43,946 bases of DNA from a virus: positions 1 through 43,946 of IMG/VR virus record IMGVR_UViG_3300028394_000125. One strand, written 5' to 3'. The notes below the pieces were generated by a model. The model did not search any database, was not told where the DNA came from, and saw nothing but the letters and a program-made list of their open reading frames with translations. Shown in pieces: positions 5,552 through 9,372 of the stretch (the stretch's first letter is position 1; the number at the start of each line of letters is the position of its first letter). The translations under genes and the position numbers were made by a program.

Positions 5552-8227
5552 TTAAACCATTGAATTGCGTAATAATTTATCTTGTATATCGTTACCCGTG
5601 CTGAGTTGAGAAATCATTTCATCAAACTTATCTTCCATCATTTGCATCATTGCTTGAGTAATTCCAGCAAGTTGGTCTACGCCCGGTAAAGATCCACTTG
5701 ATGCACTAGCCATTGCACTATCTAATGGTTCTTTTGTAGCCCCTTCTTCACTAACGCTAATCATTGAACTTGGGTCGGGTAACGGTACAATAGCTTCTCT
5801 GCCATGTAATTCAACGTTATAACCTCCTATAGGTCCTTCAAAAACTCCACCGTCATATGCTTTTAATTGACCGTGAAAGTGGCCACCAGTTGATTTAGCA
5901 CTAGCATTATTATATTCATCTTGTGCATAGTCAAGACCTAACCCTTTCATCATTTCTACAATCTCTTTACCTTGTTTTTTACTAGGCTGGCCTGCTACAA
6001 CAAAATCTAAAGCTAACCCTTTTGTATGCAAACTTGATGAAGCTTTTTCATTATGATATTGATCATTAAACCCAGTAAATTGCATGAAGCCTGGTATTTC
6101 TGCTTGAATATCTTTAGCAATATCAATCAAATCAGGATGTACATGTTTTCCCTCAGCCTGAACATCACCCTTTTTAAGTTGTAATCCAGCATCAGCTAAT
6201 TGTTTAGTAGTTGTAGGGTTAGGTGCAACGGGGGCTGATGCACCTTTTGATGCTACACTACGACTGCTACCTCCACCTCCTGCTCCACCACCGCTAGCAG
6301 CTGCCTTGTTGGCCTCTTGTCTTTTAAGCATATCTTCGTAATATGCTCGGTCTTTTTTACCTAGACTAGGATCTTGTAATGCTTCTTTGGCTGCTTTAAT
6401 TTCATCGTCAGACCATGCGGCGTTTTTACCAACCCCGCCGGCATTACCGGCTGGCGGGGCTTCGGTTGCAGGTTTATCCTCATTACCTAAAAGTTTGTTA
6501 ATGTATTTCATTACATCTACTAAACCTTTAGTAAAGGCATTTACCGCGAGTGCGGCTTTTGGCATAGCTAAATTACCCATTTTCCAAACTTCTTGTCCCA
6601 TTCTTTCCATGTTTTGCTGAGCCTTAACAGTATCTTCTGTTAAACCACCGCTAGCGGCTTTTTGTTTTTTCTGTACTTCCATGGCTTCTTCCATAGAGAT
6701 ATTTTGGCTTTTGGCAATCTCATTTAACACAGTCCAGTTACCTAATTTCTTAGTATCAGGCATAATTGCGGCTGCTTCTCTGAAATTTGATGAATATTCT
6801 TTAGCACCTTGCCTAAATATATCCTGAGCTTTATCAAACTGTTTGGCCATATCTTCAGGTTTAGAATTTTTTAATGTGTTTAAAACATCATCAGCCGTGT
6901 CTCCCATTTGTACCATAAGTTTCCTAGCGGCTTCCGTATTATTACCGCCTAATTTATCCATAAATCCGCGTTTTAATTCTGGATCCTTAAGAGTACTAAT
7001 AAATGCCATCACCGCATCTGCGCCCGCCTCATTTTCTTCTCTAAGCATATCCATACTAGCCCCAAAGCGGCTATCAGATAACATTTCATTACGTTGTTTT
7101 ATTAAATCTGCTTTGCTTAAGCCTGTTATTTTTTGTAATGCATCTAGTTCTTGGGAATACTTGACAGTACCCTGTGCTAGCTGTTCTTCACTCATGTTTC
7201 TAGCACGACCTAATTTAATTTCCTGTTGTAGGAAGCCGGCTGATGCACTTCCTATATCATCAGCAGTCATACCCAATTTACGTAATCCTAATCCGGCGTC
7301 TGCTAATGCACCGTCACTTTTAGTTAGCATTCCAACAGCTTTAGTAAACATAGTGGCGCCACCGCCTACTGTCTTACCCCATTGGGCTAAATCACCGGCA
7401 TTATCTTTAATTGCTTTTTTGAATCCTTCAAGACTCATGCCTGATTCTAAGAATTGTTTAGAAACACCCTCCATACCCTCTGCAGTTAGTGCACCTGCAT
7501 TCCCTAATTCTTGAAATGCTTTAAGGTTTTTGTCCATCAACTCTAAAACAAGTTTGGCGCCTTCTGCGGCAGCTTTAGTAACCCCGGCTATTGCTTCTCC
7601 TACAAATGGTATAGCTTTAGCTAAACTAGCTAGTGTGTTTGCTACAATGTCAATTAACGGATTTAATGATGTAAAATTAGTACTTCCGTTTGCTAAACCT
7701 GATGCAAAACTACCCAACCCCTTAGTTATATCACCTATACCTTTGGCAAAGTTACTTCCAAACTCATCCTGAGCCTTTTGTGTTGCGGCTTTTCTAGCGT
7801 TTGCTTGTTCTTCTTTTATTCCTTCTTTTCTTAATCTGGATAATACCTTTTGTTGTTCTGCGTCTAGTTCAGTATTTTGTTTACTAATCAGTTTTGTTAA
7901 ATTGTTTTGTTCATCAATAAAATAATCGTATTTTTCTAACTCTTTTTCATATAGAACTTGTTTTCTGTTTTGAAGTGCCTGCTCCTTACCAAGCATCTTC
8001 TCTATTTGATTGTTAACATCTTGTTCCAGTTTACCACGTTTTCTTGCGCCAAGCTCAAGAATTTCCATGGTTTTACGTTCTATTTTGCCGTGCTCATCTA
8101 ATTTAGCATTTATACCATGACGGACTCGTAACTCCTCTTCACGTGCGCGGCGGTCTTCCTCAGCCGCATCAGCTTGCATGCCTAAAGCTTCTCGTAATCT
8201 TCTAAGGTCGTCTGCTTCGTCAGCCAT
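5552..8227 (-). CDS. Tail tape-measure protein with M15-type peptidase motif
   Basis: An 891-residue protein next to the head genes, read here as the tape measure (T4 gp29 role) that sets tail length and helps deliver DNA. Residues about 1-165 are charged coiled coil. Residues about 165-240 are a hydrophobic, Ala/Gly-rich stretch (including LASLAKAIPFVGEAIAGVTK), and the middle is helical. Near the C-terminus is a metallopeptidase signature: SSLHTKGLALDF (about 727-738), matching the SxHxxGxAxD zinc motif of M15 D-Ala-D-Ala carboxypeptidases, and GGHFH (about 780-784), supplying the second HxH. The tail segment FEGPIGGYNVELHGREAIVP is typical of phage tape measures. A hydrolase here would help open the cell wall. 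No strong ribosome binding site is seen. A CATAAATA late-promoter-like site lies about 60 nt upstream, back to back with that of the gp26-like gene. Confidence 0.8.
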   Translation of the reverse strand: MADEADDLRRLREALGMQADAAEEDRRAREEELRVRHGINAKLDEHGKIERKTMEILELGARKRGKLEQDVNNQIEKMLGKEQALQNRKQVLYEKELEKYDYFIDEQNNLTKLISKQNTELDAEQQKVLSRLRKEGIKEEQANARKAATQKAQDEFGSNFAKGIGDITKGLGSFASGLANGSTNFTSLNPLIDIVANTLASLAKAIPFVGEAIAGVTKAAAEGAKLVLELMDKNLKAFQELGNAGALTAEGMEGVSKQFLESGMSLEGFKKAIKDNAGDLAQWGKTVGGGATMFTKAVGMLTKSDGALADAGLGLRKLGMTADDIGSASAGFLQQEIKLGRARNMSEEQLAQGTVKYSQELDALQKITGLSKADLIKQRNEMLSDSRFGASMDMLREENEAGADAVMAFISTLKDPELKRGFMDKLGGNNTEAARKLMVQMGDTADDVLNTLKNSKPEDMAKQFDKAQDIFRQGAKEYSSNFREAAAIMPDTKKLGNWTVLNEIAKSQNISMEEAMEVQKKQKAASGGLTEDTVKAQQNMERMGQEVWKMGNLAMPKAALAVNAFTKGLVDVMKYINKLLGNEDKPATEAPPAGNAGGVGKNAAWSDDEIKAAKEALQDPSLGKKDRAYYEDMLKRQEANKAAASGGGAGGGGSSRSVASKGASAPVAPNPTTTKQLADAGLQLKKGDVQAEGKHVHPDLIDIAKDIQAEIPGFMQFTGFNDQYHNEKASSSLHTKGLALDFVVAGQPSKKQGKEIVEMMKGLGLDYAQDEYNNASAKSTGGHFHGQLKAYDGGVFEGPIGGYNVELHGREAIVPLPDPSSMISVSEEGATKEPLDSAMASASSGSLPGVDQLAGITQAMMQMMEDKFDEMISQLSTGNDIQDKLLRNSMV

Positions 8228-8323: not shown

Positions 8324-9148
8324 ATGAACAATAACCCATTAAAACAATATTTTCGCAGACCTGCAATATATTTAAAATTGCCTAGTGAGGGTAAGTTTTA
8401 CCCAGAAAATGCCATTGATTTACCTGAAAATAAAGAACTACCTGTATACCCAATGACAGCTATAGATGAAATAACTAGTAAAACCCCTGACTCCCTGTAT
8501 AGCGGTTTGGCAATTTCTGAAATCATCAAAAGCTGTGTTCCAAATATTAAAGATCCATGGTCTATCCCGACAATTGACTTGGATGCTATATTAATAGCTA
8601 TTAGAGCGGCAACTAATGGAAATATGTTGGACATTGAGTCAACTTGCCCTAGCTGTACTGAAACTTCTTCATATAATGTTAATTTAATTGGATTACTATC
8701 AAAAATAATAGTGAACGGTTACAGGGATAATGTAGCCCTTGATGAAATGACTATTTCTTTCAAACCAATCACATACAAATCTTATAATAAATTAAATCTA
8801 ACACAGTTTGAGCTAGAAAAAAATGTAAGAAAAATGAATGAACTTACATCTGATGAGGAACGAATACAATATTCAAAAGAAATGATGAAACAATTAAATG
8901 ATTTAACCATGCTTCTTGTGTCTGAATCAATTGATAATATTACAACACCTTCATTTGTAGTAAATGAGAAAGAATATATTCTTGATTTTTTACAAAACTG
9001 TGACAGAAACTCATTTGTAAAATTAAAAGAACATACTATAAAATTACGAGAAGATGCTCAATTAAAACCATTACCGGTAAAATGTATACATTGTGAACAT
9101 GAATATAATCAAACTATTGCGTTAAATGTATCTGATTTTTTCGAATAA
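8324..9148 (+). CDS. 26: gp26-like baseplate hub/tail assembly protein, zero-frame product
   Basis: A 274-residue protein of the T4 gp26 type, required for baseplate hub assembly. It opens MNNNPLKQYFRRPAIYLKLP, then SEGKFYPENAIDLPENKELP, the typical start of this family. The start is taken at ATG 8324 because a GGAG ribosome binding site sits 6 nt ahead of it; an in-frame ATG at 8294 has none and lies too close to the promoter. Two Cys pairs, CPSC (108-111) and CIHC (254-257), look like a zinc ribbon. The gene ends DFFE-stop over a TTTTTTC slippery site, and a second ORF continues in the -1 frame. It stands next to the tape-measure gene but is divergent from it. In many tailed phages a frameshifted chaperone pair is encoded beside the tape measure, so a tape-measure chaperone role is plausible (inference). 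Confidence 0.82.
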   Translation: MNNNPLKQYFRRPAIYLKLPSEGKFYPENAIDLPENKELPVYPMTAIDEITSKTPDSLYSGLAISEIIKSCVPNIKDPWSIPTIDLDAILIAIRAATNGNMLDIESTCPSCTETSSYNVNLIGLLSKIIVNGYRDNVALDEMTISFKPITYKSYNKLNLTQFELEKNVRKMNELTSDEERIQYSKEMMKQLNDLTMLLVSESIDNITTPSFVVNEKEYILDFLQNCDRNSFVKLKEHTIKLREDAQLKPLPVKCIHCEHEYNQTIALNVSDFFE

Positions 9149-9266
9149 GGCTTCTGTACCTAGCGCCTGAAGAGATACAGAAGCTCATAGACGATATGGA
9201 AAAAGATACCATGTCAATTAAAGAAAATGCCATACGTATGGCTTGGCATATGCGGGGTGGCGCTAG
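9136..9266 (+). promoter_or_regulatory. Programmed -1 frameshift signal: slippery heptamer, stem and predicted pseudoknot
   Basis: Heptamer TTTTTTC at 9136-9142 is in the X XXY YYZ phase of the gp26-like frame (P-site TTT 9137-9139, A-site TTC 9140-9142). A 7-nt spacer leads to a perfect 9-bp stem, GCTTCTGTA (9150-9158) with TACAGAAGC (9176-9184). Eight loop bases, CTAGCGCC (9160-9167), are exactly complementary to GGCGCTAG at 9259-9266, allowing a long-range pseudoknot. The zero-frame stop is at 9146-9148. In the -1 frame a TGA at 9133-9135 closes the frame just before the heptamer, so the downstream ORF opens exactly at the slip site. Confidence 0.8.
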
Positions 9267-9372
9267 CTATGAAGATATACTAAACATGTCTACTGAAGAA
9301 CGCAATGCCATATCAAAGTTAATGGAAGATAACTATGATACTACTAAAAAATCAGGGTTACCATTCTTCTAA
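9142..9372 (+). CDS. -1 frame extension of the gp26-like protein (frameshift product tail)
   Basis: A 76-codon ORF in the -1 frame, reached by ribosomes that slip at TTTTTTC 9136-9142; the fusion would be 349 residues. Its sequence begins RIRLLYLAPEEIQKLIDDME and continues KDTMSIKENAIRMAWHMRGG, then SYEDILNMSTEERNAISKLM and ends KKSGLPFF. It looks protein-like from the very first codons, before any ATG: the first are at 9196 and 9211, and neither has a clear ribosome binding site. That argues for frameshifting over independent initiation, though a short internal product cannot be excluded. Helical, about 76-residue extensions of this sort are the second part of tail-assembly chaperone pairs such as lambda G/GT; equivalence with T4 gp51 or another hub factor is not established. 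A terminator follows at 9435. Confidence 0.75.
   Translation, partial: RIRLLYLAPEEIQKLIDDMEKDTMSIKENAIRMAWHMRGGASYEDILNMSTEERNAISKLMEDNYDTTKKSGLPFF

Follow-up and report, generated by a model that had tools for sequence, protein, structure and literature searches.

In lambda gpG/gpGT, a -1 slip towards the 3' end of the tail-assembly chaperone (TAC) gene adds a C-terminal domain. T4 was still named as the exception among long-tailed phages in a 2016 review of recoding (PMC5009743), and one listing of hub assembly chaperones includes its gp26 and gp51 (PMC3004832). According to papers that cite it, the study by Vladimirov, Gautam and Davidson (2022, Virology 566:9-15) reported poly-T slip signals in T4-like TAC-N genes (PMC12846349) and, in some T4-like phages, a pair of TAC genes, one of them short and the other long and fused, in place of frameshifting (PMC10885494). 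At the TAC locus of Pakpunavirus Adele and other Vandenendeviridae and Andersonviridae a -1 frameshift is conserved, its poly-T motif (GTTTTT) is invariant, and the open -1 frame is usually annotated as a hypothetical gene (PMC12846349). The general idea is therefore not new: as far as the citing papers convey it, Vladimirov et al. (2022) already reported that T4-like TACs are made by frameshifting or gene duplication. Our literature search, in which that study was represented by the papers citing it, found no paper joining jumbo phages with TAC frameshifting.

Here we analyse a 43.9-kb virus record (the window, meaning the whole stretch of DNA), which also encodes homologues of a T4-like portal, prohead protease, baseplate wedge and late sigma factor. 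Comparative sequence analysis indicates, with a probability of roughly 0.93, that its gp26-like gene is the TAC gene of a jumbo T4-like phage, and that a -1 frameshift at T_TTT_TTC, together with a hairpin, yields forms of 274 and 349 residues. As in lambda, the slip would occur near the 3' end of the TAC gene and bypass its stop, and the gene would lie beside the tape measure. Unlike in lambda, the slip site is a different one, and the probable tape measure is divergent in the window, where lambda has its tape measure downstream on the same strand. The T4-like gp26/gp51 system, as reported by Vladimirov et al. through citing papers, shares the PF12322 body, the short and long forms and the poly-T slip signals; T4 itself, however, is without the heptamer and has gp51 as its long form, whereas the window's branch appears to use a -1 frameshift and a conserved hairpin. 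Adele resembles the window in its conserved -1 frameshift, poly-T motif and open -1 frame, but belongs to another phage lineage and has GTTTTT where the window's branch has TTTTTTC. The features of the locus are as follows.

5552-8227, minus strand: divergent gene for an 891-aa virion structural protein (PHROG 14121), probable tape measure
8324-9148, plus strand: gp26-like gene (short form, TAC-N), 274 aa with two CxxC pairs, identified by PF12322, PHROG 150 and Foldseek
9136-9142, plus strand: slippery heptamer T_TTT_TTC, in phase with the gp26-like gene
9143-9149, plus strand: 7-nt spacer including the zero-frame stop TAA (9146-9148)
9150-9184, plus strand: candidate stimulatory hairpin with a 9-bp stem (9150-9158/9176-9184) and a 17-nt loop, from fold, covariation and recoding
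9142-9372, plus strand: -1 frame extension of 76 aa, predicted helical, as read after the slip (frame open from 9136)

The gp26-like gene and its slip site

The 274-aa product matches PF12322 (E 7e-19; 68.7 bits against a cut-off of 24.5 bits) and PHROG 150 (baseplate hub), and its structural model matches T4-like baseplate hub assembly proteins among viral structures (Foldseek). Neither Foldseek with the model nor the protein's profile against PDB sequences gave a significant PDB match, so no solved structure was found. A ribosome-binding duplex of -6.4 kcal/mol precedes the ATG at 8324. The reading as a tail-assembly chaperone is well supported. The model (8324-9145) also matches uncharacterised proteins of 450-690 aa in phiKZ-like jumbo phages (Ralstonia RSF1 and RP12, Erwinia phiEaH2 and Special G) at E about 1e-6 to 1e-2; these may be unassigned tail-assembly chaperones of the phiKZ-like group.

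At the end of the gene the zero-frame codons read GAT (9134), TTT (9137), TTC (9140), GAA and TAA (9146), which places the stop at the second codon after the heptamer. The initial annotation had pointed to an in-phase TTTTTTC near the stop, and the codon reading verifies it, at a position beyond chance. The string itself is common (8 occurrences in the window, 13 expected); what matters is its in-phase position and its conservation. As had also been described, the -1 frame opens exactly at the slip site and is without an early ATG: it runs from 9136 to the stop at 9370-9372, a total of 78 residues, with its first ATG at 9196. The frameshift fusion would be 349 aa long. An AlphaFold2 model of the extension is all helix (pLDDT 86.6), and searches of Pfam, PHROG and PDB with the extension returned chance-level matches only.

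The 891-aa gene lies about 100 bp from the gp26-like gene, and this divergent neighbour is kept in relatives with enough flanking sequence. Its counterpart is called "putative tape measure" in MT939487 and a virion structural protein in other records; position and size suggest that it is the tape measure. Its profile showed no detectable similarity to T4 gp29 and matched none of the large genes that follow gp26 in phages OLIVR5, ZPAH1 and S13. In these three phages a gene of 610-642 aa follows gp26 on the same strand, which is the lambda-like order. The divergent layout had been called unusual, a description that does not hold: the relatives in the branch keep it, and T4 gene 26 is likewise divergent from 51-27-28-29 (the gp29 operon). 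Residues 719-756 of the 891-aa protein resemble M15 peptidases weakly (E 0.06, below the cut-off).

Conservation of the slip site and the -1 frame

With the 274-aa protein as query, we assembled 80 IMG/VR loci and ten named GenBank jumbo phages. One locus (L069) ends before the slip site, leaving 90 intact sequences: the window, 79 IMG/VR loci and the ten named phages. All 90, a count that includes related sequences, have an in-phase TTTTTTC at the 3' end of the gene and a -1 frame that stays open past the stop; the alignment thus bears out both the heptamer and the -1 frame. The named phages with the conserved slip site reach down to about 26-34% identity. The predicted -1 product is recognisably related to the window's extension, except in PA5oct and in three loci cut by a contig end. 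An in-phase TTTTTTC with an open -1 extension is also present in the T4-like phages S-PM2, OLIVR5, ZPAH1 and S13, and carriers outside the jumbo branch include members of the Kyanoviridae, Pootjesviridae and Straboviridae. Gp26 homologues of this type are found in 86 named records in total.

At the site TTT followed by TTC is invariant, although 66% of the Phe codons in the rest of these genes are TTT. The preceding base is T in 64 of 64 distinct sequences, compared with 37% T among codon third bases. The final C of the heptamer is kept even where the -1 codon no longer encodes Arg (FFQ in PA5oct, FFL in OLIVR5). Because the distance from heptamer to stop varies among relatives, from 10 to 40 nt, the stop is not part of the slip signal. 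PA5oct, the most diverged of the set, has a -1 extension without most of the conserved motif. In its record (NC_071039; L083 3820-4060) the slip site is present and the -1 frame is open; the frame contains no ATG and is not annotated as a gene.

Could the -1 frame instead be a separate small gene, translated from its own ATG (9196 or 9211) or by coupled re-initiation at the gp26 stop? Records of Phosso, 121Q, XaC1, CBB and others in GenBank do show separate ORFs, and in a few relatives an ATG overlaps the stop (CGCATGA in L022, L032 and L081). Against this, the offset of the first ATG scatters from 9 to 114 nt after the heptamer and is at least 60 nt in most sequences, and 2 of 64 have no ATG within 40 codons. 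Mean ribosome-binding strength at the first -1 ATG is -2.3 kcal/mol, versus -5.4 kcal/mol for gp26. The -1 frame, moreover, is protein-like from the slip site onwards, which in most sequences includes a stretch before the first ATG. Among 54 distinct sequences, entropy at the three -1 codon positions is 0.96/0.66/1.43 from the slip site to column 60 and 0.89/0.55/1.46 past it; since the pattern is alike on both sides, coding starts at the slip site, and codon-type constraint precedes nearly every ATG. A separate gene would leave the first twenty conserved residues and the invariant in-phase TTTTTTC unexplained, and we consider it highly improbable.

A candidate stimulatory hairpin

Downstream of the heptamer, the 9-bp stem and 7-nt spacer noted at the outset stand up to analysis. 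The stem is perfect, forms part of the minimum-energy fold and exceeds chance (-13.6 kcal/mol, z -2.5 against dinucleotide shuffles). Most relatives have a two-part hairpin, with a lower stem of 6-7 bp (columns 14-20 with 44-50) and an upper stem of 5-7 bp (columns 21-27 with 35-41); in the window the register is shifted to give the 9-bp stem. In the relatives 75.8% of cells in the two-part stem are paired, against 36-51% (at most 51.2%) when the stem is slid, and changes on both sides occur in 55 cells, against 29 in shuffles. Re-paired examples are GGCTCTTA/TTAAGAGCC in locus L060 and GACTTCTTACGGC/GCCGTAAAGAAGTT in L058.

RNAalifold predicted no consensus pairs on the 237-column alignment, and the named structure was counted afterwards. 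Because the relatives themselves had supplied that structure, the independent support for the hairpin is the synonymous-recoding test. There, natural sequences fold more stably than their recodings (window z -3.7; mean z -2.48 over 54 sequences, Stouffer value -18, control region -1.6). As the sequences are related, the Stouffer value is no true probability. A hairpin 6-7 nt past the heptamer in most environmental relatives is thus supported by covariation and synonymous recoding.

Other stable hairpins occupy the same place in Atu_ph07, Phosso and S-PM2. In S-PM2 (L110 2181-2230), a perfect hairpin, about 13 bp long, comes after the TTTTTTC at the end of gene 26. No hairpin above the synonymous null was found in the enterobacterial jumbo phages CBB, pEa_SNUABM_47, Hallingskeid, PHA46 and phiKp_21, and none was seen in ZPAH1. 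Given its absence from these six, the hairpin is lineage-dependent rather than universal.

The initial annotation had predicted an H-type pseudoknot as the stimulator, in which loop 9160-9167 pairs with 9259-9266. The 8-base match is exact in the window (8 of 8 pairs), but it is confined to the window: the 63 other distinct sequences form 2-7 of the 8 pairs, 51% of cells are paired across relatives, and the pairing is neither conserved nor covarying. Runs of similar length occur elsewhere in the relatives, and 33 of 500 synonymous recodings reach 8 bp. The 3' side overlies codons of a conserved MRGG motif, which accounts for its constant bases. We therefore rejected the pseudoknot as a chance match; as the form of the stimulator it is unlikely, and the plain hairpin describes it better.

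As the site is a T run, the -1 product could also arise by transcriptional rather than ribosomal slippage on T6. Six T are short for slippage by a bacterial polymerase. Frameshift products are known to arise by polymerase slippage as well (PMC5009743). Here, however, the run is T6 followed by C in every case, in exact X_XXY_YYZ phase, and a hairpin 6-7 nt downstream suits ribosomal frameshifting, which makes the transcriptional route extremely improbable.

Relation to T4 gp26 and gp51

T4 gene 26 ends in ...GAGTTCTTTGAGTTACTATAATG, with no slippery heptamer, and TTTTTTC is likewise missing from the end of gene 26 in 44RR, IME13 and KM3. All four phages have a separate gp51 besides gp26. Profile comparison (hhalign) shows that gp26 and gp51 are homologous over the gp26 body (E 2e-18), and that the frameshift fusions of S-PM2, OLIVR5, ZPAH1 and S13 match gp51 throughout, in the body as well as the extension (E 1.4e-18). 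This end-to-end alignment implies that T4 encodes the long form as a gene of its own. The profile of the window's branch matches those fusions at E 1e-16 and the T4 gp26 group at E 3e-7; its fusion profile matches gp51 through the extension more weakly (E 2e-5).

Discussion

The proposal of a gp26-type chaperone made as 274 and 349 residues by frameshifting gains support from conservation, frame constraint and gp51 homology; its pseudoknot part falls away. Judged by comparison, the slip site is genuine, strongly conserved and functional. The comparative evidence comprises the site and its conservation, the frame-specific constraint, the hairpin and the homology of the fusion to T4 gp51; slippage itself, its rate and the binding partners are what we infer. 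Most ribosomes would stop at TAA 9146 and release the 274-aa short form. For a minority, the hairpin (9150-9184) would cause a pause while tRNA-Phe occupies both the P and the A site on T_TTT_TTC; these ribosomes would move back by one base to TTT-TTT, bypass the stop and extend the chain by 76 helical residues to the 349-aa long form. If the parallel with lambda gpG/gpGT holds, the short form would coat the tape-measure protein, a few long-form copies would recruit tail-tube subunits through the helical extension, and both would leave before maturation. The slip rate would set the short:long ratio.

We give even odds to a history in which the U_UUU_UUC-frameshifted TAC is the older state in T4-like phages, T4 proper swapped it for an in-frame-fused gene copy, gp51, and the covarying hairpin of the jumbo branch sets the short:long ratio. 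The new parts would be the hairpin stimulator, the coverage of the jumbo branch and the widespread annotation gap.

The slip site is kept throughout the jumbo T4-like branch yet has been missed by public annotations. The frameshift reading would settle the annotation of the small orphan ORF beside gene 26 in ten named jumbo phages and many environmental phages, and would connect gp26 and gp51, the hub chaperones of T4, with relatives that frameshift. It would also offer slip sites and hairpins that evolution has replicated many times, as material for asking how phages adjust a chaperone ratio.
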